NCBI RefSeq assembly: GCF_946480185.1
Contig: NZ_CAMLIG010000008.1
Coordinates: forward strand, 62,001-126,000
Source of the DNA: an uncultured Pedobacter sp.
Lineage (GTDB): Bacteria > Bacteroidota > Bacteroidia > Sphingobacteriales > Sphingobacteriaceae
Length of the DNA stretch: 64,000 bases
Reading direction: 5' to 3'
The notes beneath the pieces are model-generated. The model saw only the letters and a program-made list of their open reading frames with translations. It did not search any database and was not told the origin of the DNA. Every line of letters begins with the position of its first letter. The first letter of the stretch is position 1. Made by a program: the position numbers and the translations under genes. Shown here in pieces: positions 1,228 to 48,832 of the stretch.

Positions 1228-1265
1228 TAATTAGCAATAAACAATTACAGTCTTATATAGCTTAA

Positions 1266-4200: not shown

Positions 4201-4283
4201 ACTACGTGTTAGAAGAGTTGAACGTACAACCAGGAGTTGGTTACATGACTAAAATTACTAACACAGGATCTCAAGAAGCTTAA
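1266..4283 (+). CDS. actB: Alternative Complex III subunit B, molybdopterin-oxidoreductase-like iron-sulfur protein
   Basis: A 1005-residue protein. Near residue 48 there is a Tat-like signal (TPRRDFLKAMGFG) followed by a hydrophobic stretch ending AAC. The N-terminal two thirds resemble the molybdopterin-binding chain of the CISM family, which in ActB carries no molybdenum cofactor (family knowledge). The C-terminal part holds four cysteine clusters: CTGCGACIVAC, CQHCDHAPCETVC, CVGTRYCANNC with CPYKVRRFNW, and CSMCIQ with CQQTCPANAIVFG. These fit three 4Fe-4S and one 3Fe-4S cluster. It lies in the act operon between the multiheme cytochrome and the NrfD-like subunit. The fused layout is typical of ActB, so the call is firm. 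Confidence 0.96.
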   Translation: MESTKKYWKGLEEVNNTPEFAEHSKNEFAEPIPVEELLEGTALTGVTPRRDFLKAMGFGLGAVSLAACNVAPVQKSIPYLIKPEEVTPGVPNYYASSYKGGSILVKTREGRPIKIEGNPTCLINQGGLNSQAQASVLDLYDISKLKGPLKGGNDSSWDDIDTYVKRELAKVQASGKTIALVSSTINSPSTKAVIAEFTAQYPTTKHVTLDAISYSGIIKANEATFGKAVLPQYRFDKATVIVSFGADFLGSWISPVQFTKQYVGNRNMASLKQKRMSRHIQFETGLSMTGTNADSRVAIKPSEEGAAILSLYSELTGTPTSGASLSNNKSADAAIKLVAKELLAAKGSALVISGSNSIATQTVINAINSFLGSYGTTIDLDNPSYQFAGKDEDFTALLADMNAGKVGAVLFLDSNPAYNHPLSKDFETAIKKVDLTISFADRQDETASLCKVVVPNHNFLEAWGDGNAVEGYYTLVQPTINPIYNTRQAELSLLIWANYPNQDYYAFVRSNWEKTVLAATGKKWDDVLQAGFVSLPAKTGGVYAFNGTIDANEVLKQGKALAKDIELHIYQSVGIGSGEQANNPLLQETPDPVSKVTWENYAAINPKFAESLGLKQFDVVSIKTDKYSVELPVLHQPGQAQGTISVAVGYGRTKAGKVADGVGQNVYPFITYNQGTAYFANTVTVSNTGGYNELALTQTHQTIEGRNIIREATFVEYKKDPAFGSGNNDEKHEKYDLWNKFDKPGHNWVMAIDLNACTGCGACIVACSTENNVPVVGKDEVRRRREMHWIRIDRYYTFNEDGQKLTKEDDIVEIQGTMENVSVVHQPMMCQHCDHAPCETVCPVLATVHSSEGINHMAYNRCVGTRYCANNCPYKVRRFNWFNYWNDSRFDNYLNNEFTQLVLNPDVTTRFRGVMEKCSMCIQRIQAGKLQAKIEKRVLKDGDVKVACQQTCPANAIVFGDGNDPDSEVSKALKNERTYYVLEELNVQPGVGYMTKITNTGSQEA

Positions 4284-4306
4284 TATTTAAAAATATAATT
4301 TAAGAT

Positions 4307-5779
4307 ATGTCATCACATCACGAATCAATATTAAGAGAACCCCTAATTACTGGTAAAAATATCACGTATACTAAAGTTACGGATGATGTTTTATGGCCAA
4401 TAGAAAACAAGCCTAACAAAGCTTGGTGGATCGGGTTTATCGTTGCATCTGCCGGAGCTTGTTTATGGTTATTTGCGGTTAGTTATACATTTTGGAATGG
4501 AATTGGAGCTTGGGGATTAAACAAGACAGTTGGCTGGGCTTGGGATATTACCGGTTTCGTTTGGTGGGTAGGTATTGGTCACGCCGGAACGTTGATTTCT
4601 GCTGTATTATTACTCTTCCGACAGAACTGGAGAAACTCCATTAACAGATCTGCGGAAGCGATGACCATCTTTGCCGTAATTTGTGCTGCAACTTATGTTG
4701 TCTCCCACATGGGGCGTCCTTGGTTAGCTTATTGGCCATTGCCACTTCCAAATCAATTTGGTTCTTTATGGGTTAACTTTAACTCTCCGTTAGTTTGGGA
4801 CGTTTTTGCAATCTCTACGTACTTCACAGTATCCTTAGTTTTTTGGTATGTTGGTTTGTTACCAGACATCGCGGCCATTAGAGATAGAGCAACGGGTTTA
4901 ACAAGAAGAATTTATTCTATCCTTTCTTTTGGATGGAATGGTTCCGTAAAAACTTGGCAACGTTTTGAAACTGTTTGTTTAATATTAGCAGGTATTGCAA
5001 CACCATTGGTACTTTCTGTACATACTATCGTATCTATGGACTTTGCAACCTCCTTAATTCCGGGATGGCATACAACTATTTTTCCTCCTTACTTTGTTGC
5101 TGGAGCAATTTTCTCTGGATTTGCCATGGTACAAACCTTATTATTGGTAACTAGAAAAGTATTAGGATTAGAGAATTACATTACAATGTTCCACATTGAG
5201 TCTATGAACAAAATCATTGTACTTACCGGTTCAATTGTAGGTGTAGCGTATTTATCAGAATTTTTTATCGCTTGGTATTCAGGTGTTGAATATGAGCAAT
5301 ACACTTTCTTAGGTCGTTTCATAGGTCCATATTGGTGGGCAGGCTGTATGATGTATGGCTGTAACGTACTGATGCCTCAGTTACTTTGGTTTAAAAAGGT
5401 TAGAACAAACATTGCAATATCTTGGTGCTTATCAATTGTGGTGAACATTGGTATGTGGTTCGAGCGTTTTGTAATTATCGTGAACTCTTTACACAGAGAT
5501 TATTTGCCATCAAGTTGGGCGATGTTTTACCCTACTTGGATAGATATATCTGTATTTGTTGGATCTATCGGATTATTCTTTACCCTTTTCCTATTGTTTA
5601 TCCGTGTATTGCCTTCAGTAGCAATGGCAGAGGTAAGATTACTAGTGAAAACTGCTTCAGAAGATTCGAAAAGGAAATTGATTGCAGAAGGAAAAGTGAA
5701 GCAAGAAGAAGCTGATTATTATATCGATTCTTTAGGTGCATACGATAGTGTTGAACAAGCTGACTACGTAAAAATTTAA
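4307..5779 (+). CDS. actC: Alternative Complex III subunit C, NrfD-like integral membrane quinol subunit
   Basis: A 490-residue polytopic membrane protein with about ten hydrophobic helices, e.g. WWIGFIVASAGACLWLFAVSY and GHAGTLISAVLLLF. The GxGHAGTLIS segment is typical of ACIII NrfD/PsrC-like subunits. ActC binds quinol and probably helps move protons. It sits 23 bases after actB and 2 bases before actD, in the canonical act order. The C-terminal tail after the last helix is charged and cytoplasmic-like. Confidence 0.95.
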   Translation: MSSHHESILREPLITGKNITYTKVTDDVLWPIENKPNKAWWIGFIVASAGACLWLFAVSYTFWNGIGAWGLNKTVGWAWDITGFVWWVGIGHAGTLISAVLLLFRQNWRNSINRSAEAMTIFAVICAATYVVSHMGRPWLAYWPLPLPNQFGSLWVNFNSPLVWDVFAISTYFTVSLVFWYVGLLPDIAAIRDRATGLTRRIYSILSFGWNGSVKTWQRFETVCLILAGIATPLVLSVHTIVSMDFATSLIPGWHTTIFPPYFVAGAIFSGFAMVQTLLLVTRKVLGLENYITMFHIESMNKIIVLTGSIVGVAYLSEFFIAWYSGVEYEQYTFLGRFIGPYWWAGCMMYGCNVLMPQLLWFKKVRTNIAISWCLSIVVNIGMWFERFVIIVNSLHRDYLPSSWAMFYPTWIDISVFVGSIGLFFTLFLLFIRVLPSVAMAEVRLLVKTASEDSKRKLIAEGKVKQEEADYYIDSLGAYDSVEQADYVKI

Positions 5780-5781
5780 AC

Positions 5782-6318
5782 ATGAGCAAAATAAAATATA
5801 TTTTAGGTCTATTTGACGATCCTGATCAGATGATGCATGGGATTGATAAGCTACAGGAGAACAAAATTGGTATTTACGATGTTTTTACTCCGATGCCTAT
5901 TCACGGGATTGAAGATAAACTAGGCATAAAAAGAAGCCGTTTAGGTATTGTAGCTTTCTGCTGTGGAATTACGGGAACGGCTACAGCTTTAGGTTTTATG
6001 TACTATACAATGGCTTATGATTGGCCAATGAACATTGGTGGTAAGCCAAACTTTGCATTGCCAAACTTTATACCAATTACCTTTGAGTTAACGGTTCTTT
6101 TTTGCGCATTAGGAATGGTAAACATTTTCTTTATGAGGAATCATTTATTCCCAGGAAGAGCACCACGAGTAATGGAATTTAGAGCAACCACCGATAGATT
6201 TGTAATTGCTATTGATGCAAGTACAATTACAGATAGCGCTCAGGTTGATAGTTTATTAAAAGAAGCTGGTGCAGTAGAAATTAAGCACAACGATAGAAAA
6301 TATCTAAGTTATGAATAA
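5782..6318 (+). CDS. actD: Alternative Complex III subunit D (DUF3341)
   Basis: A 178-residue protein with the ActD/DUF3341 layout: a soluble N-terminal part starting YILGLFDDPDQMMHGIDKL, two transmembrane helices (VAFCCGITGTATALGFMYYT and ITFELTVLFCALGMVNIFF), then a cytoplasmic tail. ActD is a structural membrane subunit of ACIII. It begins 2 bases after actC, and its last 8 bases overlap the start of actE, so translational coupling is likely. Confidence 0.93.
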   Translation: MSKIKYILGLFDDPDQMMHGIDKLQENKIGIYDVFTPMPIHGIEDKLGIKRSRLGIVAFCCGITGTATALGFMYYTMAYDWPMNIGGKPNFALPNFIPITFELTVLFCALGMVNIFFMRNHLFPGRAPRVMEFRATTDRFVIAIDASTITDSAQVDSLLKEAGAVEIKHNDRKYLSYE

Positions 6319-6895
6319 GACAAGTATTTTTGGATTAGCATTTTTAGCAGTTTCGGTTGCTACAATATTCAGCTCATGCCATGATAAAAGGAGTAGAGGC
6401 TTAGAGTATGCGCCTAATATGTATTACCCTATAGCTTACAATCCTGATCAAAAGAACAAAAATTTTGAGAACGGAATGACAGCTCAGGTACCACCTGCCG
6501 GAACAACTCCAATTGGCTTTACTAGGTTTGATGAATTTCCTAATACCACAGAAGGTTATGAAGCTGCAAGCTTAGCTGTAAAAAATCCTCTTCCGGTTAC
6601 TAAGGAAAACATGGTAGAAGGGAAACAACTTTATGTCGCAATGTGTGGACCATGCCATGGTGATGGTACAGGTAATGGGCATATTGTAGAGTTGGGTAAA
6701 TTTCCAGCTCCTCCATCTTACTCTACCGGTAACTCATCAAGAGGAGGCGCAATGAAAGACTTAACTGATGGGAAAATTTACCATACCATTCAGTACGGTT
6801 TAAACTTAATGGGGTCTTATGCATCACAACTTTCTCCAGAAGAGAGGTGGAAAGTTGTCATGTATGTTCACCAATTACAAAAAGGACAACAATAA
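6311..6895 (+). CDS. actE: Alternative Complex III subunit E, monoheme cytochrome c lipoprotein
   Basis: A 194-residue protein with an N-terminal signal ending in a lipobox-like FSSC, so it is probably a lipid-anchored periplasmic cytochrome. One heme c site is present (CGPCHGDGTGNG), and a C-terminal Met in LNLMGSYASQL is a plausible sixth ligand. ActE belongs to ACIII and passes electrons towards the terminal oxidase. The start overlaps actD by 8 bases. Confidence 0.93.
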   Translation: MNKTSIFGLAFLAVSVATIFSSCHDKRSRGLEYAPNMYYPIAYNPDQKNKNFENGMTAQVPPAGTTPIGFTRFDEFPNTTEGYEAASLAVKNPLPVTKENMVEGKQLYVAMCGPCHGDGTGNGHIVELGKFPAPPSYSTGNSSRGGAMKDLTDGKIYHTIQYGLNLMGSYASQLSPEERWKVVMYVHQLQKGQQ

Positions 6896-6911
6896 TCGAT
6901 TAAATAAAAAT

Positions 6912-8117
6912 ATGGGAGCTCATCATCATTCATATAATTTTTCAGAGCAATTTAGTTTTAGCGGAAAAGCCAAAACATTTAGCTTAATAGGTATCGTTAT
7001 AGGTATTTTGGCCATCGCTTATGGCTTTTTAACCGGACATGCAGAGCGTACTTTCCTTAACTTGTTGTTAATGAGTTATTACTTTGCATGTGTTTGTGCA
7101 GCTGGACTATTCTTTTGTGCCATACAATATGTTGCACAAGCCGGTTGGTCAGCAAGTTTATTACGTGTACCTCAAGCATTTTCTAAAGTGTTACCACTTG
7201 CCAGTATAATCTTGGTAATTGTTATAGCTGCGGGTTTGTTCTCACACAATCTTTATAACAGCTGGAATCATGTTGCAGAAGGTGGCGGAGAGCATTTTAG
7301 TTCTTCAAAGTCTTTTTACTTGAGTCCGTTATTCTTTTTAGCAAGAATAATTGTGTTTTTAGGTGCTTACAGTATCTTTGGATTGTTGCTTTCTAAGCTT
7401 TCTGTAAATGAAGATATCCATGGCGGATTAAAAAGCTATGATAAAAGCATCAAATATTCAGTTATATTTTTGGTGATTTTTGGTTTCACTACTCCAGTTT
7501 GGGCGTTTGATACCATCATGTCATTAGAAGCGCATTGGTTCTCAACCATGTTTGGATGGTATAACTTTGCCGCAATGTGGGTATCTGGTATGGCTACAAT
7601 TAGTGTTGTGGTTATTATGCTTAAAAAATCAGGTTACATGCCATGGATAAAAGATAGTCATTTACATAATTTAGGTCTGTTTGTTTTTGCATTCTCTATT
7701 TTCTGGACTTATGTTTGGTTTGCTCAATTTTTATTGATTTATTATGCAAACATTCCAGAAGAAACTGTGTATTTCTTTAAGAGATGGGAAGGTTTTTATT
7801 TACCATTATTTTGGTTAAACCTAATCATTAACTTTATGGCGCCAGTTTTAGTCTTAATGTCTAGGGATGCAAAAAGAAAAACTAATATCTTGTTAGGAGT
7901 TTGTATCGTATTAATACTTGGACACTGGTTAGATTATTATATGATGATTATGCCAGGCACAATCGGCGAAGCTGCTGGTTTTGGTATTATTGAGATAGGC
8001 GTATTTTTAGGATTTGTTGGATTGTTTACCTTTTCTATACTAACATCATTAAGTAAAGCACCATTGGCACCTAAAAATCACCCATTTTTAGAAGAAAGCT
8101 TAAACCACCAGATTTAA
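6912..8117 (+). CDS. actF: Alternative Complex III subunit F, NrfD-like integral membrane subunit
   Basis: A 401-residue protein with about ten transmembrane helices, similar in layout to ActC. I place the start at the ATG of MGAHHHSYNFSEQF, 16 bases after actE. The open frame continues upstream, but only through actE coding sequence. The His-rich N-terminus followed by FSGKAKTFSLIGIVIG is usual for Bacteroidota ActF. It is the second NrfD/PsrC-type membrane subunit of ACIII. It ends 16 bases before the oxidase subunit II gene, so ACIII and oxidase are probably co-transcribed as a supercomplex operon. Confidence 0.93.
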   Translation: MGAHHHSYNFSEQFSFSGKAKTFSLIGIVIGILAIAYGFLTGHAERTFLNLLLMSYYFACVCAAGLFFCAIQYVAQAGWSASLLRVPQAFSKVLPLASIILVIVIAAGLFSHNLYNSWNHVAEGGGEHFSSSKSFYLSPLFFLARIIVFLGAYSIFGLLLSKLSVNEDIHGGLKSYDKSIKYSVIFLVIFGFTTPVWAFDTIMSLEAHWFSTMFGWYNFAAMWVSGMATISVVVIMLKKSGYMPWIKDSHLHNLGLFVFAFSIFWTYVWFAQFLLIYYANIPEETVYFFKRWEGFYLPLFWLNLIINFMAPVLVLMSRDAKRKTNILLGVCIVLILGHWLDYYMMIMPGTIGEAAGFGIIEIGVFLGFVGLFTFSILTSLSKAPLAPKNHPFLEESLNHQI

Positions 8118-8133
8118 AAACAAGAATCAATTG

Positions 8134-9336
8134 ATGATAATGGATATTAAAAGATTTTTTAATTTAAAAACTTTACTTGCATTAGGAGTGGTTATATCGC
8201 TTTCCTTTTCGCAAGTAATGGCTGCAGAAGAAGTAGCGAAGACAGCGGATGCTGTTTCTAAAAACGACGGACTTGGTAAAACAGTTGGTTACTATGTGCT
8301 TTTGTTTTTATTGCTATGCATGTTTATCGGAATTGTTGGGAAAATATTGAGCGTTTACGATTTAACCCGTAAAATTCAGGGCAATAGAAACGGCGTTAGA
8401 TGGGATAGAATTAATGGAATCCTTTTCGGGGTTACTTTAATTGTTGGAATGTATGGCGCTTATTGGTGCTACACCGTTCAAGGTGCGCAAATTTTGCCAG
8501 AAGCTGCATCAGAACATGGAGCTAAAATTGACTCTATGTTGAACATCACGTTAATTCTTACAACTATAGTTTTTGTTTTAACACATATAGCTTTATTCTC
8601 TTTTGCTTACTTATACAATTCAAGTAAAAAAAGAAAAGCCTACTACTATCCTCATAACAATACATTAGAGAAATACTGGACAGTTATACCTGCTATTGTT
8701 TTAACAATTTTAGTATTGATGGGATTTTTTACTTGGAGAGGAATTACAAATATCTCCAAAAATGACATGAAAAATGCAATTCAAATAGATGTAACAGCGC
8801 ATCAATTTGCTTGGGAAGTTAGGTATGCAGGAAATGACAATGTAAACGGAAGAAAAAACTTTAAGCTAATTGGAAGCCTTAACGGCTTAAATAGCTTAGG
8901 ACTTGATTTGTCTGATAAAGCTAATTACGACGATTTAAAAGTAAATGAAATTGTTTTACCTGTTAACAAATCAGTTCGTTTCACCTTAGGTTCTCAGGAT
9001 GTTATCCACAGTTTTTATATGCCTCACTTTAGAGTACAGATGAATTGCGTTCCAGGTATGGCCACTTATTTTCAATTTACGCCTACCAAAACTACAAAAG
9101 AGATGCAACAGGATATTGATGATCCAAAGTTTGAGTATTATCTGCTTTGTAATAAAATTTGTGGAGGTTCTCACTATAATATGCAATTTAAAGTCCGTGT
9201 AGTTTCAAACAGAGAATACGAAGATTGGATTAAACAACAGAAGCCAATGGTTACTGAAGAAATGAAAAAAGCGTATCAGTTAGCGATGAAAGACAACGTA
9301 ACTGCTACTAGTAGCAAAATTGCTTTAAATAATTAA
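8134..9336 (+). CDS. coxB: Cytochrome c oxidase subunit II (CuA subunit)
   Basis: About 400 residues. A cleavable signal-like N-terminus (ends QVMAAEE) and three further hydrophobic segments precede a periplasmic cupredoxin domain. The CuA site is complete: the upstream His in DVIHSFYMP and the motif CNKICGGSHYNM. No cytochrome c domain is fused at the C-terminus, so this is an aa3-type rather than caa3-type subunit II. ActE or a soluble cytochrome c presumably donates electrons. The first ATG (8134) is chosen; a second in-frame ATG lies at 8140. Confidence 0.94.
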   Translation: MIMDIKRFFNLKTLLALGVVISLSFSQVMAAEEVAKTADAVSKNDGLGKTVGYYVLLFLLLCMFIGIVGKILSVYDLTRKIQGNRNGVRWDRINGILFGVTLIVGMYGAYWCYTVQGAQILPEAASEHGAKIDSMLNITLILTTIVFVLTHIALFSFAYLYNSSKKRKAYYYPHNNTLEKYWTVIPAIVLTILVLMGFFTWRGITNISKNDMKNAIQIDVTAHQFAWEVRYAGNDNVNGRKNFKLIGSLNGLNSLGLDLSDKANYDDLKVNEIVLPVNKSVRFTLGSQDVIHSFYMPHFRVQMNCVPGMATYFQFTPTKTTKEMQQDIDDPKFEYYLLCNKICGGSHYNMQFKVRVVSNREYEDWIKQQKPMVTEEMKKAYQLAMKDNVTATSSKIALNN

Positions 9337-9358
9337 GATTAAAATACAGAAGGAGATT

Positions 9359-11254
9359 ATGTCAACAATTGCAATTAATAACCCATCGGCAATTCATCAT
9401 GATGATCATGCACATGCTCACCATCATGAAACATTTTTGACTAAATATGTTTTTAGTCAGGATCACAAGATGATCGCAAAGCAATTCCTTATTACGGGTA
9501 TCATAATGGGAGTTGTTGCGATGTTATTATCTATCCTTTTCCGGATTCAGCTAGCTTATCCAGATCATAGCTTCCCATTATTGGAAGTTTTATTAGGAAA
9601 ATTTGCGCCTGAAGGTCGTTTAGATCCTAACTTCTATTTGTCTTTAGTGACAATACACGGAACAATCATGATTTTCTTCGTGTTAACAGCCGGGCTTAGT
9701 GGAACGTTTTCAAATTTATTGATCCCTTTGCAAATTGGTGCCCGTGATATGGCTTCACCATTCATGAATATGCTTTCTTACTGGTTCTTCTTTATGGCGT
9801 CGGTAATTATGTTGTCAACGTTTTTTATCGAATCAGGACCTGCTGGTGGCGGCTGGACAGTTTATCCACCTTTATCAGCTTTGCCAAAAGCAATGCCAGG
9901 CTCTGGCTTGGGTATGACCATGTGGTTAATTGCTATGATCCTATTCGTTGCTTCTTCATTAATGGGCGGTATAAATTATGTTTCTACCATCTTAAATATG
10001 CGTACCAAAGGAATGGATCTTTGGAAAATGCCTTTAACTATCTGGGCTTTCCTTTTGACTGCAATTACAGGTATCTTGTCTTTTCCAGTGTTGGTAGCAG
10101 GTGTTGTATTGTTGATTTTCGATAGAAGTTTTGGTACTTCATTTTACTTATCTGATATATTTATTGGCGGACAAGCTATAGCACACGAAGGTGGTAGCCC
10201 TATTTTATGGGAGCACTTATTCTGGTTCTTAGGTCACCCAGAGGTTTATATCGTAATTATGCCAGCGATGGGTATTGCTTCTGAAGTAATGTCTATCAAC
10301 TCAAGAAAACCAATTTTTGGTTACCATGCGATGGTGTATTCTTTAATTGGTATCACAACATTATCATTTATCGTTTGGGGTCACCACATGTTTGTCACGG
10401 GGATGAATCCGTTCTTAGGTGGAGTGTTTATGATAACGACCTTAATTATTGCCGTTCCTTCAGCTGTTAAAACGTTCAACTGGTTAGCTACATTATGGAG
10501 AGGAAATATACGCTTTACACCTGCAATGCTTTTTGCAATTGGGTTGGTTTCTTTCTTTATTTCTGGTGGTTTAACCGGTATTTGGTTAGGTAACGCTGCT
10601 TTGGATATCAACTTACATGATACTTATTTTGTAGTTGCTCACTTTCACTTGGTAATGGGGTCTGCCGCAATATTTGGTATGATAGCCGGTGTTTATCATT
10701 GGTTTCCAAAGATGTTTGGACGTATGATGAATGCTAAATTAGGATATCTACACTTCTGGATCACGTTTGCTGCTGCTTATATGGTTTTTTTTCCAATGCA
10801 CTTTATGGGATTAGACGGTGTTCCACGTAGATACTATGCTTTTACAGAGTTTGAATCTATGAGAAAATGGATGTCTGTAAACATCTTCATTACATGGTCA
10901 GCTATTATGGCGGCTGTTGCTCAGGTAGCATTCTTGTTTAATTTCTTTTATTCAATATTCTTCGGAGAAAAAGCTACTCAAAACCCTTGGCAAGCAAATA
11001 CTTTAGAGTGGACTACTCCAGTAGAGCGTATTCACGGAAACTGGCCGGGAGAAATTCCAACTGTTTACCGTTGGTCTTATGATTACAGCAAACCTGGACA
11101 TCATGCCGATTTTATTATGCAAACTACGCCACTTTCCGAAACAATGAGCTCTAATCTACCTCACGATTTCGAGGGTAACGAAGTTGCTGAAAAGATTCAG
11201 GAAAAATGGAATTTAGAACATAAGTCAGTAAATAATACTGAAGAAGTCAAATAA
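9359..11254 (+). CDS. coxA: Cytochrome c oxidase subunit I (heme a / heme a3-CuB catalytic subunit)
   Basis: A 631-residue protein with 12 or more helices. It reduces O2 to water and pumps protons. Diagnostic segments are all present: FWFLGHPEVYIVIMP (CuB His, the His-Tyr crosslink and the D-channel Glu of A1-type oxidases), WGHHMFVTGM (CuB His pair) and HDTYFVVAHFHLVMG (heme a3 and heme a ligands). The N-terminus is very His-rich (HHDDHAHAHHHE). An AGGAG lies just 3 bases before the ATG. A perfect hairpin terminator 25 bases after the stop closes this transcription unit. Confidence 0.97.
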   Translation: MSTIAINNPSAIHHDDHAHAHHHETFLTKYVFSQDHKMIAKQFLITGIIMGVVAMLLSILFRIQLAYPDHSFPLLEVLLGKFAPEGRLDPNFYLSLVTIHGTIMIFFVLTAGLSGTFSNLLIPLQIGARDMASPFMNMLSYWFFFMASVIMLSTFFIESGPAGGGWTVYPPLSALPKAMPGSGLGMTMWLIAMILFVASSLMGGINYVSTILNMRTKGMDLWKMPLTIWAFLLTAITGILSFPVLVAGVVLLIFDRSFGTSFYLSDIFIGGQAIAHEGGSPILWEHLFWFLGHPEVYIVIMPAMGIASEVMSINSRKPIFGYHAMVYSLIGITTLSFIVWGHHMFVTGMNPFLGGVFMITTLIIAVPSAVKTFNWLATLWRGNIRFTPAMLFAIGLVSFFISGGLTGIWLGNAALDINLHDTYFVVAHFHLVMGSAAIFGMIAGVYHWFPKMFGRMMNAKLGYLHFWITFAAAYMVFFPMHFMGLDGVPRRYYAFTEFESMRKWMSVNIFITWSAIMAAVAQVAFLFNFFYSIFFGEKATQNPWQANTLEWTTPVERIHGNWPGEIPTVYRWSYDYSKPGHHADFIMQTTPLSETMSSNLPHDFEGNEVAEKIQEKWNLEHKSVNNTEEVK

Positions 11255-11278
11255 CCTGATTATTTGAATAAATTATAA

Positions 11279-11316
11279 TTGGGGTATTCAGTATTAAGTA
11301 CGAATACCCCAATTTT
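11279..11316 (+). terminator. Rho-independent terminator after coxA
   Basis: Perfect 11-bp inverted repeat: TTGGGGTATTC at 11279-11289 and GAATACCCCAA at 11302-11312, with a 12-base loop that can pair further, followed by a short T-run. It separates the act-coxBA unit from the heme A synthase unit. Confidence 0.85.
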
Positions 11317-11327
11317 ATAAAATAGAA

Positions 11328-12389
11328 ATGTATTCAAAGGCTGAAAGTCGTTTTTTATCAGTGAATTTTATTTCGCTGATTGCTCTTTTCCTACTTATAC
11401 TTGCTGGTGGTGTTGTTAGAAGCTCAGGTTCTGGCATGGGTTGTCCTGATTGGCCTAAATGTTTTGATCAGTACATACCTCCAACAGACGTTTCTCAGTT
11501 GCCTGCTAATTATAAGGAAAGATACGTTCAAAAAAGACTTGAAAAGAATGAGCGTTTCGCTAAACTTTTAGATAAAACCGGTTATTCAGATTTAGCCATT
11601 AAAATTCGCCACGACGAAAGCATAAAGGTTCCTGAAGAATTTAATCCAACTAAAACTTACACTGAATATATAAATAGGCTTATCGGAGCCTTGACAGGTT
11701 TTTTACTTTTAATATGTTTTGCATTGGCAATTCCGTTATTTAAAACGAAACCGGTTGTTTTTTGGTTAAGCGGGGTCAATCTATTGTTGGTTGGCTTTCA
11801 AGGTTGGTTAGGATCTATCGTGGTTTCAACAAACCTTTTGGCATGGATGATAACGGTACACATGTTGGTTGCAGTTTTAATTCTCGCAATTTCTTTGTAC
11901 ACCTATTTTTCAGTAAAGTTGCCAAAGGTGGTTTTATCTATAAATATAAAAGAGCTGAGTTATTTAAGGCTAGTTTCTTTAATGGTGATGCTTGTTTCTT
12001 TGTGGCAGATTACAGTAGGGACGGAAGTAAGGGAAGGTGTTGACGCGGTTAAATCAAATTTTCAGGAACTGCATCGAACAGAATGGCTTACAGAAGTAGG
12101 TAGAATATTTGCAGACCACAAAGAATTGGTGTGGCTTTATTTGTCAATTAGTCTCTTTCTGTTTGTATTAGTAAAAAGGTTCAAGATTACGGGTTTAGTT
12201 TCAATTCTCGCATCATGGATGATCGTGATTTTTGTAAGCCAAGTGGTAACAGGATTAGCGTTGGCATATTTTGCTTTAGTGCCTTGGGCTCAATCTGCAC
12301 ATGTACTTTTGGCAACGGTTTTATTTGGGATACAAGCTTATCTCTTTTTTATTTTTTATACTAAGAAATCTAATTTAATCAGATTATAG
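11328..12389 (+). CDS. ctaA: Heme A synthase (COX15/CtaA family)
   Basis: A 353-residue protein with eight predicted helices in two four-helix halves. Signature segments are the N-terminal LAGGVVRSSGSGMGCPDWPKC, the YTEYINRLIGALTG helix and the C-terminal VVTGLALAYFALVPWAQSAHVLLA. The enzyme oxidises the C8 methyl of heme O to make heme A for the adjacent oxidase. The conserved Cys pair in the first loop is only partly present: GCPDWPKC is seen. Its stop overlaps the GTG of ctaB by one base. Confidence 0.94.
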   Translation: MYSKAESRFLSVNFISLIALFLLILAGGVVRSSGSGMGCPDWPKCFDQYIPPTDVSQLPANYKERYVQKRLEKNERFAKLLDKTGYSDLAIKIRHDESIKVPEEFNPTKTYTEYINRLIGALTGFLLLICFALAIPLFKTKPVVFWLSGVNLLLVGFQGWLGSIVVSTNLLAWMITVHMLVAVLILAISLYTYFSVKLPKVVLSINIKELSYLRLVSLMVMLVSLWQITVGTEVREGVDAVKSNFQELHRTEWLTEVGRIFADHKELVWLYLSISLFLFVLVKRFKITGLVSILASWMIVIFVSQVVTGLALAYFALVPWAQSAHVLLATVLFGIQAYLFFIFYTKKSNLIRL

Positions 12390-13246
12390 TGGGGGAGTTT
12401 ATCAAAGATTTTAAAAGTTTAGTAAAACTAAGATTAACACTTTTGGTGGTTCTTTCTGCTTCCATCTGTTTTTTAGTAGGCGAGCATTTCCAAGGCTCAA
12501 TTCATTGGATAAGCTGGATTAAGTTAATTGTTGGTGGCTTTTTGGTCACTTCCGCTGCAAACGGTTTTAATGAAATCATTGAAAAAGATTTAGATAAGCT
12601 GATGGCAAGAACTTCTGATAGGCCTTTGCCATCAGGAAGGATGACAACCGGGCAAGCCTTAGTTTTAAGCTTGATTATGGGTATCTTTGGCACCTATTTA
12701 CTGGGAAGTTTAAACCTGTTGACAGGTGTGTTGTCGGTTTTCTCCATTTTTTTGTACGCCTTTTTATATACACCAATGAAACGTAAATCGCCAATTGCTG
12801 TTTTTATTGGCGCAATACCAGGAGCTTTGCCACCATTAATTGGATATGTTGCTTCTCATGGGCAGATTGATACCATTGCATTAATTTTATTTGGTATTCA
12901 GTTCGTTTGGCAATTTCCACATTTTTGGGCTATCGCTTGGGTGCTTGACGATGATTATAAAAAAGCGGGATTTCGTTTGTTGCCGACTACCCGTAGAGAT
13001 AGAACAAGTGCCGTTATCACATTTGTATCTACACTCATTTTGATTCCCGTAAGTCTTTTGCCTACGTTTTTCGGATTTGGAGGATACTTAATTGGGATTG
13101 TATCATTAATAATGGGATTGATATTCGCTTATCAAGCTTTTGTTTTAGCTAAAACCTTAGATGTAAAATCAGCTCGGCAGTTAATGTTCGGAAGTTTTAT
13201 TTATTTGCCAGTAGTACAGCTGGTACTCTTGTTTAATTTAAATTGA
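12389..13246 (+). CDS. ctaB: Protoheme IX farnesyltransferase (heme O synthase)
   Basis: A 285-residue UbiA-type prenyltransferase with about nine helices. The first Asp-rich motif is visible as NGFNEIIEKDLDKLMARTSDRPLPSG, and YAFLYTPMKRKS follows. It converts heme B to heme O, the substrate of CtaA next door. A GTG start is used (GTG GGG GAG TTT), overlapping the last base of the ctaA stop. No ATG lies close by in frame. It is followed directly by the subunit III genes. Confidence 0.94.
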   Translation: MGEFIKDFKSLVKLRLTLLVVLSASICFLVGEHFQGSIHWISWIKLIVGGFLVTSAANGFNEIIEKDLDKLMARTSDRPLPSGRMTTGQALVLSLIMGIFGTYLLGSLNLLTGVLSVFSIFLYAFLYTPMKRKSPIAVFIGAIPGALPPLIGYVASHGQIDTIALILFGIQFVWQFPHFWAIAWVLDDDYKKAGFRLLPTTRRDRTSAVITFVSTLILIPVSLLPTFFGFGGYLIGIVSLIMGLIFAYQAFVLAKTLDVKSARQLMFGSFIYLPVVQLVLLFNLN

Positions 13247-13251
13247 AAAAT

Positions 13252-13827
13252 ATGGCTCTTAACACTGATTTAGATAGACATAATCTGCAACCTAAAAAGT
13301 TTATATTATGGCTTTTTATAGTTTCTTCGATCATTTTTTTTGCTGGTTTAACCAGTGGTTTTATTGTTTACGCAGGTAGCGGATCAGGTAAATCTTTGAA
13401 TGTTGATTTGCCAAAGGTTTTTATTTATAGTACAATAGTTATTGTTATAAGTAGTTTAACAATGCATAAAGCATTTTTAAGCGCTAAAAGCTTACAATTT
13501 GCAAAGCAGAAACTTTGGCTGTGGGTCACTTTTGTTTTAGGCTTGGTGTTTATAGGTTTACAAGTTTATGGCTGGATGGTGTGGACTAATTTAGGGCTGT
13601 TTTTTGTGAACTCAAACGCCTCAATTAGTTTCGTTTATGCATTTACTTTATTTCATATTATACATATCATAGCTGGGCTTGTGATGATTTTAACAGCGAT
13701 TAGAAGCAGTTACGGACCGGTGCCAAATGTTAAAAATACCTTTAGAATGGAAATCTCTTCTATTTTTTGGCATTTTGTAGATATTGTATGGATTTATTTA
13801 TACCTTTTCTTACTTTTGAATCATTAA
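13252..13827 (+). CDS. Cytochrome c oxidase subunit III-like protein (short form)
   Basis: A 191-residue, five-helix protein of the heme-copper oxidase subunit III family. The C-terminal signature FWHFVDIVWIYLY and the FHIIHIIAGLVM helix are clear. I start it at the ATG of MALNTDLDRHN; an in-frame TTG 9 bases upstream overlaps the ctaB stop. It is shorter than the usual subunit III, and a second, better conserved copy follows. Such tandem subunit III genes are known in Bacteroidota oxidase operons. How the two share a role is unknown to me. Confidence 0.85.
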   Translation: MALNTDLDRHNLQPKKFILWLFIVSSIIFFAGLTSGFIVYAGSGSGKSLNVDLPKVFIYSTIVIVISSLTMHKAFLSAKSLQFAKQKLWLWVTFVLGLVFIGLQVYGWMVWTNLGLFFVNSNASISFVYAFTLFHIIHIIAGLVMILTAIRSSYGPVPNVKNTFRMEISSIFWHFVDIVWIYLYLFLLLNH

Positions 13828-13860
13828 AATTTTACTCAAAAATTACAACTTAAATATTTG

Positions 13861-14562
13861 ATGGATACGACAGCACAATTAGACGAAATAAAAACCAGTC
13901 CGTGGAGCGGAGGTAGGTCACCATTCTCTGTAGAGTATGGTAAACTGATGATGTGGTTTTTTCTTTTATCAGATGCATTTACTTTTTCTGCATTCTTGGT
14001 TTATTACGGCGCACAGCGTTTTAGTAAAATAACATGGCCAAACCCCGAAATTGTTTTTAAATCTTTCCCAGGCGTTTCTGATAATGCACCGTTGGTTTTT
14101 GTGGGTTTAATGACTTTTATTTTGATTGCAAGTTCCGTAACAATGGTTTTAGCTGTAGAAGCAGGACATCGTAACAAAAAGAAAGAGGTTACCTGGTGGA
14201 TGGTTGCTACAATTATTGGAGGATTGATGTTCTTAGGTTGCCAAGCTCTAGAGTGGAGCCATTTGCATCATGAAGGATTTTGGTGGGGACATATTCCTAC
14301 ACTTGAAACAATGAAAGAAATGGGATTAACATCCGATGCTGTGAGTACACAGCAATTTGCTAACCTATTTTTCACCATCACCGGATTCCACGGGTTTCAC
14401 GTATTCACTGGAGTTATCATTAATATCATTATTTTAATAATGACAATGGCTGGAGTTTTTGAACGTCGAGGCCATTATCTGATGATCGAGAAAGTGGGCT
14501 TATACTGGCACTTTGTTGATTTAGTTTGGGTATTTGTATTTACCTTCTTTTATTTAGTTTAA
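13861..14562 (+). CDS. coxC: Cytochrome c oxidase subunit III
   Basis: A 233-residue integral membrane protein with about five helices. Family features are KLMMWFFLLSDAFTFSAFL near the N-terminus, FFTITGFHGFHVFTGVIINI, and the closing LYWHFVDLVWVFVFTFFYL. Subunit III stabilises the catalytic core and sustains proton uptake. It begins 33 bases after the shorter subunit III and ends 16 bases before the subunit IV gene. The first ATG (13861) is used. Confidence 0.93.
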   Translation: MDTTAQLDEIKTSPWSGGRSPFSVEYGKLMMWFFLLSDAFTFSAFLVYYGAQRFSKITWPNPEIVFKSFPGVSDNAPLVFVGLMTFILIASSVTMVLAVEAGHRNKKKEVTWWMVATIIGGLMFLGCQALEWSHLHHEGFWWGHIPTLETMKEMGLTSDAVSTQQFANLFFTITGFHGFHVFTGVIINIIILIMTMAGVFERRGHYLMIEKVGLYWHFVDLVWVFVFTFFYLV

Positions 14563-45464: not shown

Positions 45465-45887
45465 ATGGACAGAAAGGAATTTTTAGCTTCAATAGGACTT
45501 GGTGTGGCAACAGTGGCAGTTTTTAACTGCTTAGGCTGTTCCAAATCATTTACTGGAGATCCATCAACACCTGGCCCAACCAATGTTGACCTTACTTTAG
45601 ATTTATCAGCGTCGGCAAACTCGGTATTAAAAAATAACGGAGGTTATATTTATACGAACGGAATTATTGTAGCCCGTAACATGGCAGGCGAATACATTGC
45701 AGTGTCAGAAACTTGCCGACATGAAAGCACAAGAGTGATTTATTTGGCAAATTATCACGAGTTTTATTGTCAAAGGCATGGTGCTACTTATTCAGAAACG
45801 GGGGTTTCTGCCGGTATCCAGACCAACTTGCCTTTAACCAAATACAACACACAACTTACAGGTACAAGTCTTCGCATCTTTTCTTAA
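45465..45887 (+). CDS. Rieske [2Fe-2S] lipoprotein
   Basis: A 140-residue protein. The N-terminus DRKEFLASIGLG is Tat-like, although it has RK rather than RR. A hydrophobic stretch and the lipobox-like CLGC follow. The Rieske motifs are complete: ETCRHES (Cys-x-His) and FYCQRHGATYSETG (Cys-x-x-His-Gly). The domain is small and ends LPLTKYNTQLTGTSLRIFS. It is probably an extracytoplasmic electron carrier. It leads a five-gene cassette with thioredoxin, ApbE, DUF4266 and DUF3570 genes. Compare the degenerate relative at 32536-32952. Confidence 0.88.
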   Translation: MDRKEFLASIGLGVATVAVFNCLGCSKSFTGDPSTPGPTNVDLTLDLSASANSVLKNNGGYIYTNGIIVARNMAGEYIAVSETCRHESTRVIYLANYHEFYCQRHGATYSETGVSAGIQTNLPLTKYNTQLTGTSLRIFS

Positions 45888-45905
45888 AACATAAATATTT
45901 ACATT

Positions 45906-46334
45906 ATGAAACTATTAAGCATTTTCTTATTATCCTTCTTATTCTCGGGAAGTCCCTGGGTTTTAGATTTTAAACAAGCACAAACAGAGGCTAAACAAAA
46001 TCACAAACATATTCTGATCAGTTTTTCAGGTTCAGATTGGTGTGGTCCTTGTATCCGTACCCATAAAGAGATTTTAGACAAAGAAGCTTTTGGGGATTAT
46101 GCCGATAAAAATTTGGTTTTGGTAAGAGCTGATTTCCCACGATTAAAAAAGAATCAGCTTCCGGCAGAGCAAATGAAAAAAAATAACGATTTAGCAGTAA
46201 AGTATAATCCAGAAGGAGATTTTCCTTTAACTGTTTTAACCGATGAAACTGGGAAGGTTATTAAAGAATGGAAAGGATTTCCAAATTGTTCTTCGGAAGA
46301 GTTTGTGAAACAAGTAGAAAATGCAATTAACTGA
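45906..46334 (+). CDS. Secreted thioredoxin-fold protein
   Basis: A 142-residue protein with a signal peptide (LLSIFLLSFLFSGSPW) and a thioredoxin-7-like domain. The redox motif is SDWCGPCIRTHKEIL, and the cis-Pro segment is DFPLTVLTDETGKV. It probably handles disulfides or thiols of partner proteins in the periplasm. It begins 18 bases after the Rieske gene, and its last 14 bases overlap apbE. Natural clients are the Cys-rich DUF4266 lipoprotein downstream or the Rieske protein (inference). Confidence 0.9.
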   Translation: MKLLSIFLLSFLFSGSPWVLDFKQAQTEAKQNHKHILISFSGSDWCGPCIRTHKEILDKEAFGDYADKNLVLVRADFPRLKKNQLPAEQMKKNNDLAVKYNPEGDFPLTVLTDETGKVIKEWKGFPNCSSEEFVKQVENAIN

Positions 46335-47280
46335 TTCGGGAAAATTTCAGGTATTTAAGCAGTCTATGAAATTGATGGGAAATCAATTCGAGATTTCTGT
46401 GGTTGCTGATGATGAAGCTTTTGCTAATGAAAAAATAAGCGATGCTGTTGCCGAAATTAAAAGGATAGAGCAATTACTCACTACTTTTAAGCCCGATAGC
46501 CAAACCAATCAAATCAACGGAAATGCAGGTATTGCACCGGTTAAAGTTGATGCGGAAGTTTTTTATCTCATTCAGCGCTCCATCCGTATTTCTGAAATTA
46601 GCCAAGGTGCATTTGATATTACCTACGGTTCTTTAGATAAACGTTTCTGGAATTTTGATACAGAAATGGACAGTTTGCCTGATAAGGAAACTGCGAAAAA
46701 ATCTGTTGAATTGATTAATTATAAAAATATAATTCTTAATGCTGATGACCATACGGTTTTCTTAAAAAAGAAAGGTATGCGAATTGGCTTTGGGGGAATT
46801 GGTAAAGGTTACGCAGCCGATAGCGCAAAAAGACTTTTACAGGAAGCAGGTGTAGCAAACGGAATTGTAAATGCATCGGGAGATTTAACAACTTGGGGAA
46901 TGCAACCAACAGGCCAACCCTGGACAGTAGGAATAGCAGATCCTGAACATAAATTAAAGCCATTCTCATATATGAACATCAGCAATATGGCCATTGCTAC
47001 ATCAGGTAATTATGAGAAGTTTGCAGTAATTAATGGTAAAAAATATTCCCATACGATTGATCCGCATACAGGTTTCCCGGTAGCGGGAATAAAGAGCGTT
47101 AGTATTATTTGCCCTCAGGCCGAGCTGGCAGATGCGTTAGCAACTCCGGTTACTGTAATGGGCGTAGAAGTTGGTTTAAACCTCATTAACCAGTTAAATA
47201 ATATAGCCTGTATTATTATTGATGATGATAATAAATTATACACATCAAAAAATATAAATATCAAAAAAACAATAGCCTAA
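46321..47280 (+). CDS. apbE: ApbE-family FAD:protein FMN transferase
   Basis: A 319-residue ApbE protein. Signature parts are QGAFDITYGSLD, the FGGIGKGYAADSAKRLL motif, NASGDLTTWG and KYSHTIDPHTGFPV with the C-terminal DALATPVTVMG. ApbE attaches FMN to Ser/Thr of target proteins, normally outside the cytoplasm. No signal peptide is visible with the start at 46321, an ATG inside the thioredoxin gene; a later ATG at 46366 would not add one. No FMN-binding (NqrC/RnfG-like) target is encoded in the window, so its substrate is open. Confidence 0.92.
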   Translation: MQLTDSGKFQVFKQSMKLMGNQFEISVVADDEAFANEKISDAVAEIKRIEQLLTTFKPDSQTNQINGNAGIAPVKVDAEVFYLIQRSIRISEISQGAFDITYGSLDKRFWNFDTEMDSLPDKETAKKSVELINYKNIILNADDHTVFLKKKGMRIGFGGIGKGYAADSAKRLLQEAGVANGIVNASGDLTTWGMQPTGQPWTVGIADPEHKLKPFSYMNISNMAIATSGNYEKFAVINGKKYSHTIDPHTGFPVAGIKSVSIICPQAELADALATPVTVMGVEVGLNLINQLNNIACIIIDDDNKLYTSKNINIKKTIA

Positions 47281-47299
47281 TGTCTAAAGCCCACACAAT

Positions 47300-47518
47300 A
47301 TGAAAAAACTAACACCCTATGCAATTTTAGCATTTTCGCTAGTTGCATTTAGCTCTTGCGGAAATGTAAAGGCTTATGAGAAAATGAAATTAAGAGATGC
47401 TGAAATGGAGCTTGGCGCAAGAAGAGCAGAGAAATTTGAGCAAAACTTTCAGCTTTACCGCGAGGGTTCCTCAGGTGCTAACGGTGGTAAAAGTGGTGGT
47501 GGTTGTGGTTGTAACTAA
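47300..47518 (+). CDS. DUF4266 small Cys-tailed lipoprotein
   Basis: A 72-residue protein with a lipoprotein signal (LVAFSSCGNVKAYEK, lipid Cys at residue 20). A short charged helix follows, and the tail YREGSSGANGG..GGGCGCN. The invariant-looking Gly-rich CGCN end and the preceding MKLRDAEMEL segment match DUF4266. No function is established. The two Cys could bind a metal or carry a modification (inference). It lies between apbE and DUF3570. Confidence 0.88.
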   Translation: MKKLTPYAILAFSLVAFSSCGNVKAYEKMKLRDAEMELGARRAEKFEQNFQLYREGSSGANGGKSGGGCGCN

Positions 47519-47535
47519 ATCTTTTAATTGTTAAT

Positions 47536-48738
47536 ATGAAATACATTTCATTAACTGTAGTTGCACTTTATTTAGGTATTGTTGCAAGCTTTGCTCAAAC
47601 CGTAAAAAGAGACACACTACCTTACCAAAAGCAAAAATTAAAATTTGAACAGGCTGATTTGGTGAACAGCTATTACCATCAGGATGGTAATAATTCGGCA
47701 GTGACTGGCGGTGTTGGGACAGAAAAATTAACTGATTTTTCAAATACGTTTGATTTACAGCTTTCGCGTTACGGCAAAACAGGATTAAAGCATACCTATA
47801 ATTTTGAATTAGGTTTTGATACTTACACCTCTGCCTCATCGGATAATATAGACCCGAGCACTCACAGTGGTCCATCACATATTGATGTGAGAGTATATCC
47901 TTCCATTAGTTGGGATATTGCCAACGAGCAAAAGGGACATAGTTTTGGGTTTGATGTTTCCACTTCGCATGAGTTTGATTACACTTCTTTTGGTGGCGGA
48001 TTACATTATTCTAAATCATCAAAGGATAAAAATACCGAGCTGGAAGTAAAATTAAAAGCCTTTTTTGATACTTGGCATGTGATTTTGCCCTACGAGTTAC
48101 GCCCGGATAATGCGGGTGGACCGGGATATCAGCAGGGTGATCATGCGCCACGAAATTCTTTTAGCGCTGCGATAAGCTTGTCGCAAGTATTTACCAAAAA
48201 TTTCCAAGCATTATTAATGATAGAACCGGCTTACCAAGCTGGTTTATTGGCCACGCGGTATCAAAGAGTTTATTTTACAGATTTGTCTCTCAGATCAGAA
48301 TATTTACCGGATAACCGCTTAAAACTGCCTATTGGAGCCCGGTTAAATTATTTTTTAGGCGATAACATTGTCTTCCGCTCTTTCTTTAGGTATTATGCGG
48401 ATAACTGGGGCATTAAATCAGAAACTGCAGAATTAGAAACAGCAATAAAACTAAATCCTTTTGCTTCTATTAGTCCGTTTTACAGATATTACCAACAAAC
48501 TGCCGCCGATTATTTTAACAGTTATGGGCAACATCAGATAAGCGAACAATTTTATAGCAGCGATTATGATTTGTCCAAGTTTCATAGCAGTTACTTTGGC
48601 GCAGGAATTAGGCTTGCCCCACCAGCAGGTGTTTTAGGAATTGCAAAACTTTCTATGTTAGAATTAAGATACGGACATTATGTAAGAAGCAATGGCTTAA
48701 ATTCTAATATCGTCAGCATGAACCTTAGGTTTAGATAA
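47536..48738 (+). CDS. DUF3570 outer-membrane beta-barrel protein
   Basis: A 400-residue protein with a signal peptide (ALYLGIVASFAQ). The body is rich in alternating amphipathic strands with aromatic girdles (RVYPSISWDIANEQ, FRSFFRYYADNW, LELRYGHYVRSN) and ends with a C-terminal strand closing in FRF-like R-F-R. The segments KFEQADLVNSYYHQDGNNSAVTGGVGTEKL and LRPDNAGGPGYQ fit DUF3570. It is probably an outer-membrane barrel. The partnership with DUF4266 and ApbE is recurrent in bacteria to my knowledge. A bidirectional terminator follows. Confidence 0.88.
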   Translation: MKYISLTVVALYLGIVASFAQTVKRDTLPYQKQKLKFEQADLVNSYYHQDGNNSAVTGGVGTEKLTDFSNTFDLQLSRYGKTGLKHTYNFELGFDTYTSASSDNIDPSTHSGPSHIDVRVYPSISWDIANEQKGHSFGFDVSTSHEFDYTSFGGGLHYSKSSKDKNTELEVKLKAFFDTWHVILPYELRPDNAGGPGYQQGDHAPRNSFSAAISLSQVFTKNFQALLMIEPAYQAGLLATRYQRVYFTDLSLRSEYLPDNRLKLPIGARLNYFLGDNIVFRSFFRYYADNWGIKSETAELETAIKLNPFASISPFYRYYQQTAADYFNSYGQHQISEQFYSSDYDLSKFHSSYFGAGIRLAPPAGVLGIAKLSMLELRYGHYVRSNGLNSNIVSMNLRFR

Positions 48739-48762
48739 ATTAAGCTTAAAAGTGTTAAAAAT

Positions 48763-48799
48763 AAAAAGCCCACCTTCGCGGATGCAAGGTGGGCTTTTT
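48763..48799. terminator. Bidirectional rho-independent terminator
   Basis: Perfect 14-bp stem AAAAAGCCCACCTT (48763-48776) / AAGGTGGGCTTTTT (48786-48799) with a 9-base loop. It has T-runs on both strands and serves the DUF3570 gene and the convergent minus-strand gene. Confidence 0.9.
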
Positions 48800-48832
48800 A
48801 TTTACAGAAACTGTAAATTATAGTCCCAAAAC

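Follow-up and report, generated by a model that had tools for sequence, protein, structure and literature searches.

The main text of Meheust et al. 2021 (PMC8238504) shows that the DUF3570 of Chlorobium luteolum receives flavin at two [S/T]GA[S/T] motifs through the action of its cognate ApbE. The same text reports 285 flavinylation clusters with DsbD, of which 227 contain DUF3570, 183 a thioredoxin (Trx) and 221 DUF4266. It also counts 316 DsbD-free clusters in which ApbE, DUF3570, Trx and DUF4266 occur together, and suggests a hybrid thioredoxin/flavin system. Within the open-access literature searched, DUF3570 and DUF4266 were found to be treated only in that paper, whose main text does not contain the word "Rieske" and uses "outer membrane" once, for siderophore transporters. 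The sections of Huang et al. 2024 (PMC11334425) considered here model other ApbE substrates. We analyzed a related cassette in a 64,000-nucleotide stretch of an uncultured Pedobacter sp. contig, NZ_CAMLIG010000008.1 (the whole stretch is referred to as the window). It consists of five intact genes on the plus strand (45465-48738), encoding a Rieske lipoprotein, a secreted Trx, ApbE, DUF4266 and DUF3570, with intergenic spacings of 18, -14, 19 and 17 bases.

The operon probably passes electrons through the envelope to flavins on an outer-membrane barrel. With modest confidence, we interpret it as a variant hybrid thioredoxin/flavinylation system in which flavinylation precedes export, DUF4266 provides a CGC arm, the Rieske protein is optional and, much more tentatively, a metal is the acceptor. 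The core of the system is already known. What is new in this variant is a Rieske gene at the head, a T-S-A-S motif and an ApbE with no export signal; among the testable claims, pre-export flavinylation is the most interesting. A preliminary description of this DNA had proposed the five-gene same-strand cassette, and all open reading frames were recovered at that position and strand, with their Pfam families above cut-off. The intact Rieske domain, the WCGPC thioredoxin and the GGGCGCN ending that it listed were likewise found in the sequence or in profile scans.

A four-gene core with an optional Rieske gene

To assess the linkage of these families, 58 loci were collected using the window's DUF3570 as query, a sample biased towards the window's clade. 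Two hand-chosen sets of 20 stretches were added, one from a DUF3570 survey of a phylum sample and one from a survey of the Rieske family. The genomes are partly drafts or metagenome-assembled genomes (MAGs), in which absence is uncertain. DUF4266 was present in 58 of the 58 loci, and ApbE and Trx in 55 each, some contigs ending within the cassette. The commonest order was Trx-ApbE-DUF4266-DUF3570, with ApbE downstream of DUF3570 in two loci (L005 and L025). Among 247 sampled genomes of the phylum, DUF3570 was detected in 71 and DUF4266 in 69, all of them among the 71 (hypergeometric P 1e-59, with genomes treated as independent). The preliminary description had suggested surveying the linkage of all five families: the four-gene core of Trx, ApbE, DUF4266 and DUF3570 proved to be tightly linked, while the Rieske gene was found in only 28 of the 58 loci. 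The basic unit comprises four core genes, to which a Rieske gene may be added.

The closest relatives of the window's DUF3570 (82-85% identity) belong to a Pseudopedobacter MAG, a Bacteroidetes MAG, Pedobacter psychrophilus and P. segetis, which marks the window as Sphingobacteriaceae-like. A plasmid search returned two Hymenobacter records with a DUF3570 relative. Several DUF3570 genes per genome, some in tandem, were seen in loci L059-L088, probably from Chlorobia, where one open frame of 832 aa comprises two copies.

DUF3570 as the probable flavin carrier

DUF3570 (47536..48738, plus strand; PF12094, 92.6 bits, cut-off 25) is the proposed flavin carrier. Its N-terminus is a hydrophobic leader, helical at residues 6-21 in the structural model (judged without SignalP), as expected for the signal peptide of a target gene. 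The predicted structure (predicted local distance difference test, pLDDT, 87.2; predicted template modeling score, pTM, 0.81) is a closed, full-length outer-membrane barrel with full-length matches to barrels; a profile search of the PDB gave no significant sequence relatives. In the model, the putative flavin mononucleotide (FMN) motif lies within a disordered loop, at the end of the barrel that bears the long loops. Once inserted in the outer membrane, the barrel would carry its flavin loop on this face, which on the model is probably the outer one.

The motif in the window reads D-x-x-T-S-A-S followed by SGPS. The first part, D95-T-Y-T-S-A-S101 (codons at 47818..47838, plus strand), is the likely FMN site 1, with Ser101 as acceptor; S111-G-P-S114 (47866..47877, plus strand) is a degenerate site 2. 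S99, A100 and S101 are invariant across 65 DUF3570 rows, and D-x-[YF]-[TS]-S-A-S occurs in 59 of 59. Ser114 is likewise kept in 59 of 59 rows, the second site reading SSAS in 51 and [ST]GPS in 5. The [ST]GPS form is confined to the window's own small clade, where one flavin site has perhaps been lost.

All 35 DUF3570 genomes searched for ApbE encode it, and in 11 of them it is the single ApbE. Other client families were sought in 15 of the 35: 10 of the 11 single-ApbE genomes (G063 was omitted, its ApbE not being beside DUF3570) and 5 of the 24 multi-ApbE genomes, picked because their second ApbE was already known to bear a signal; the other 19 lie outside the sample. FMN_bind, NqrB/RnfD and DUF2271 were found in none of the 10 genomes whose only ApbE is that of the cassette, each search being positive in at least one control genome. 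Therefore, DUF3570 is the only known client class found in these genomes. FMN_bind and NqrB were likewise absent from the five multi-ApbE genomes tested, and in 5/5 of these DUF2271 lies ~2.3-2.4 kb from the second, exported ApbE (loci L095, L108, L116, L117 and L118).

The preliminary description had stated that no usual ApbE target is present and that DUF4266 or DUF3570 may be the client. The first statement is outdated, the C. luteolum DUF3570 being already known to be flavinylated by its ApbE, and the same publication makes the proposal of DUF3570 right in kind (PMC8238504), C. luteolum being the one case in which covalent FMN on DUF3570 has been demonstrated. The other half of that proposal finds no support: a D-x-x-[S/T]-x-A-[S/T] site is missing from the tail of DUF4266, and on sequence grounds this lack of an acceptor motif would rule DUF4266 out as a flavin client.

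ApbE without an export signal

The window's ApbE, an FAD:protein FMN transferase (46321..47280, plus strand; PF02424, 283.6 bits, cut-off 25.6), aligns to the solved ApbEs 7esa and 1vrm through the TSG, HxxDPxTG and DAL/DGL regions. Only 17 residues precede the conserved core, and an in-frame TAG at 46315-46317 lies two codons upstream. No export signal or lipidation site was found on this protein, which departs in this respect from an extracytosolic flavinylation system; the preliminary description had not mentioned this feature. For the comparison with other ApbEs, "exported" was defined by a custom hydropathy threshold rather than by SignalP. Across 104 distinct ApbEs, the peak hydropathy ahead of the core was either ≤1.48 or ≥2.06, except in the control L089, which was scored as exported by eye, as the script had misplaced its core. 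A hydrophobic N-terminus is missing in 80 of 94 distinct cassette ApbEs and present in 10 of 10 non-cassette ApbEs.

On the ApbE tree, the signal-less proteins fall into two clades, one of 61 Bacteroidia rows (support 99/99) and one of 18 rows, plus a single long-branched row, and the exported/signal-less label needs three changes. The 18-row clade probably represents Chlorobia, judging from its tandem DUF3570 copies and SGAS motifs. In each of the five multi-ApbE genomes (G029, G065, G146, G182 and G214), the cassette ApbE is signal-less and the DUF2271-linked ApbE bears a signal. Among the ten single-ApbE genomes, the cassette ApbE is signal-less in seven and signal-bearing in three (G150, G174 and G226). 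The cassette ApbE gene of L161 resembles that of L057.

These distributions bear on where flavinylation takes place. We hypothesize that the signal-less ApbE acts in the cytosol, where it attaches FMN to Ser101, and perhaps Ser114, of DUF3570 while this is still a precursor that has yet to pass through Sec. A cytosolic ApbE serving an exported barrel fits the flavinylation of C. luteolum DUF3570 in Escherichia coli, where the protein, cloned so as to truncate its signal, was found mostly in the cell pellet, according to the main text of PMC8238504. The same electron system could instead operate with flavinylation after export, if ApbE enters the periplasm in some way not yet recognised or if its missing signal has no mechanistic meaning. 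We regard this as a lesser but appreciable possibility. A signal-like N-terminus is carried by 14 of the 94 cassette ApbEs, so ApbE export is compatible with the system and periplasmic flavinylation of DUF3570 seems workable; moreover, ApbE is typically periplasmic according to the sections consulted of a review (PMC12052999), where the only cytosolic ApbEs named are those of trypanosomatids and one that serves a soluble Klebsiella fumarate reductase. Against flavinylation after export, the signal-less state is fixed in the 61-row clade and in the separate 18-row clade, and in all five multi-ApbE genomes examined the other ApbE bears a signal.

Flavinylation by ApbE before export, or in connection with the Sec translocon, was not found described in the open-access literature searched. 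If flavinylation does precede export, the covalent flavin must survive both Sec and outer-membrane assembly. To our knowledge, such survival has not been demonstrated. The occurrence of a signal-less ApbE/DUF3570 pair and an exported ApbE/DUF2271 pair in one genome makes flavinylation before export directly testable.

The thioredoxin and the DUF4266 tail

The secreted Trx-like protein (45906..46334, plus strand; PF13899, 40.4 bits, cut-off 27) carries WCGPC and is DsbH-like: it scores 86.8 bits against the NCBIfam DsbH model, under the cut-off of 190, and matches PDB 2ju5 with an E of 5e-17. From the family name, we take DsbH to be a reductase. DUF4266 is a small lipoprotein (47300..47518, plus strand; PF14086, 67.9 bits, cut-off 27) whose C-terminal tail, GGGCGCN (47495..47515, plus strand), contains a CXC motif and is invariant from G67 to N72 in 33 rows. 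Its AlphaFold model is weak (pLDDT 59.5, pTM 0.23), and the tail is disordered in it. In the parts consulted, one study gives an E0' of -167 mV for a CGC triad (PMC4316792), and another describes SoxY, in which a Gly-flanked C-terminal Cys carries the substrate (PMC6067878). On the basis of the invariant tail, the CGC potential and the SoxY precedent, a swinging dithiol arm from Trx to the flavin is therefore proposed.

In this proposal, a DsbD encoded elsewhere would reduce the secreted Trx, which in turn would reduce the CGC dithiol of DUF4266, and the flexible tail may deliver the electrons to the flavin. DsbD_TM was detected in 15 of 15 genomes tested, including the four nearest, and a full DsbD adjoins the cassette in L010 and L021; none was seen by eye beside the window's cassette. 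The earlier suggestion that the CGC tail is held in reduced form by the thioredoxin comes near to what has been proposed in print, and it stays plausible.

The Rieske gene

The optional head gene encodes a Rieske [2Fe-2S] lipoprotein of 140 aa (45465..45887, plus strand; PF00355, 29.7 bits, cut-off 20.3; lipobox assigned by eye). In 30 aligned Rieske rows, the C-x-H and C-x2-H ligands C84, H86, C102 and H105 are invariant, as is C25. Rieske subunits of bc1 and b6f complexes possess a second Cys pair that forms a disulfide; no such pair occurs in the alignment, and no cytochrome b was found beside the Rieske gene in the window.

In the count of 28 loci given above, the gene stands at the cassette head on the same strand, as a fragment at the contig start in L030 and over two frames in L057; the weak, distant Rieske match of L006 was left out. 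It also heads 4 of 20 further cassettes. Mapped on the ApbE tree, the Rieske label needs at least 12 changes over 59 scored rows. Five loci with a cut or partial upstream region were unscored, as were cassettes under other locus names, including the Rieske-bearing L126, L127 and L131. The locus count and these changes exclude Rieske as a constant fifth member, and its being cassette-specific is excluded by the occurrence of the family in DUF3570-free genomes.

We read the Rieske lipoprotein as an optional one-electron carrier that would feed or drain the same flavins. The chief rival to this reading is that the gene is a passenger, landing repeatedly at the operon head and standing outside the electron route, which the many gains or losses and the relatives in genomes without DUF3570 would suit. 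We consider this less likely, given the position of the gene directly at the head and on the same strand in both samples, and given that Rieske and ApbE remain together in two loci, L151 and L152, from genomes that gave no DUF3570 match.

In these two loci, a purM-like gene is followed by Rieske-ApbE and then by prfA- and pyrF-like genes, and in L126 a purM-like gene precedes Rieske-Trx-ApbE-DUF4266-DUF3570 (purM, prfA and pyrF named by eye). Together with L154, they present a purM-Rieske-(Trx)-ApbE locus with or without DUF4266-DUF3570, as if the latter had been lost and Rieske and ApbE kept. A second, diverged Rieske gene lies upstream of the first in L018, L019, L022 and L026, that of L022 being broken over frames. 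In genomes without DUF3570, relatives of the Rieske protein also stand beside YceI in L141, L143, L144, L153, L155 and L158 (by Pfam in 4 of 4 scanned, the two others by similarity), where a barrel-like gene is adjacent as well (DUF5777 in 3 of 5 scanned). This Rieske family is thus found together with a barrel in a second setting.

Genomic neighborhood and the final acceptor

Within three genes of the cassette, VIT1 was found at 17 of the 58 loci, always on the same strand. Cytochrome b561 genes lay within this distance at 15 loci, with no fixed strand, P-type ATPases at 11 and RND pumps at 5. None of these was recognised by eye next to the window's cassette. The likeliest final acceptor would be an oxidised metal, for example Fe(III), with electrons serving metal reduction or uptake; we put this forward weakly. 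Downstream of the cassette, L123, L124, L127 and L131 have RND and regulator genes (one RND protein was scanned, the rest assigned by eye). An RND/copper function as the main context is weak at 5/58 on the strict count.

The same neighbors would also suit a metal-handling module, in which a soft metal would be bound by the CGC tail and would pass through the barrel as a channel, the flavin or Rieske center doing no more than set its redox state; the main text of Meheust et al. 2021 lists 25 clusters with VIT1 (PMC8238504). However, no metal gene was recognised near the window's cassette, RND pumps are rare, and a dedicated flavin transferase and Trx suggest electron turnover. We consider such a module improbable. 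The preliminary description had offered an envelope electron-transfer or metal-handling route: the former fits, with its functional steps inferred, and the latter persists as this low-confidence rival.

In the divergent cassettes of L119, L120 and L134, DUF3570 and ApbE are separated by a NusG_II protein whose cysteine motif is SCRHKTC-like or CGHKTC-like. The window's cassette is closed by a symmetrical hairpin with A and T runs (48759..48803, plus strand), a likely bidirectional terminator. The sequence at 48755-48803 folds at -27.9 kcal/mol (z -7.6, 0 of 200 shuffles equally low), bearing out the strong terminator proposed earlier; a simple terminator scan recovered only a weaker part of this hairpin and assigned it to the opposite strand. 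Elsewhere in the window (49-14562), an alternative complex III-like cluster was recognised by eye, with multihaem c, iron-sulfur/molybdopterin-like and NrfD-like subunits, followed by cytochrome oxidase genes.

Weighing the proposed route

Several observations weigh against the interpretation favored here. The published pair of [S/T]GA[S/T] motifs is not found in the window's DUF3570, which has TSAS and SGPS instead, with the acceptor serines retained; the cassette is therefore classed only as a variant of the Meheust system. Gly or Ala changes in the motif halve the flavinylation of a Klebsiella protein, as described in the consulted part of PMC12052999. The side assigned to the flavin loop depends on strand parity. 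ApbE was not seen in the fetched stretch of L028, L029 and L036, and the sole ApbE of G063 sits on a different contig from DUF3570. To these are added the signal-bearing minority of cassette ApbEs, and a Rieske gene that is missing from half of the loci and has family members in genomes without DUF3570.

In its fullest form, our proposal is that cytosolic ApbE adds FMN to the unfolded barrel, and that the flavin survives Sec and the β-barrel assembly machinery (BAM) and is displayed on the cell surface, fed by a Gly-rich DUF4266 CGC arm that reaches the barrel lumen and by the Rieske lipoprotein. Dithiols and flavins would then conduct electrons through the outer membrane with no haem involved. 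This full chain is speculative, and we would not expect all of it to hold. A flavin/dithiol route of this kind would give Bacteroidota a way across the outer membrane other than multihaem conduits, and its redox range could be approached through the Rieske partner.

Comparison with known systems

The clusters of Meheust et al. share with this cassette ApbE, DUF3570, a PF13899 thioredoxin and DUF4266 with a C-terminal CXC in one operon, with DsbD as the donor. The cassette differs in its Rieske head gene, in the lack of an adjacent DsbD (dispensable, given the 316 clusters without it) and in its TSAS/SGPS motif; a signal-less ApbE and an outer-membrane barrel are also absent from the main-text passages of PMC8238504. 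The cytosolic Klebsiella ApbE that serves soluble fumarate reductase (PMC12052999) resembles the window's ApbE in having no signal peptide, but its client stays cytosolic, whereas the client here is an exported barrel. The SoxY swinging arm (PMC6067878) is alike in its working, with a Gly-flanked Cys at a mobile C-terminus and no kinship claimed; unlike the CGC dithiol, it is a single Cys that carries sulfur intermediates. The pairing of ApbE with periplasmic DUF2271 also combines a flavin transferase with a dedicated client other than FMN_bind, although there ApbE bears an export signal and the client is another protein. In porin-cytochrome conduits of the MtrCAB type, a barrel likewise helps electrons across the outer membrane; the cassette described here differs from them in that no multihaem cytochrome is encoded among its five genes.

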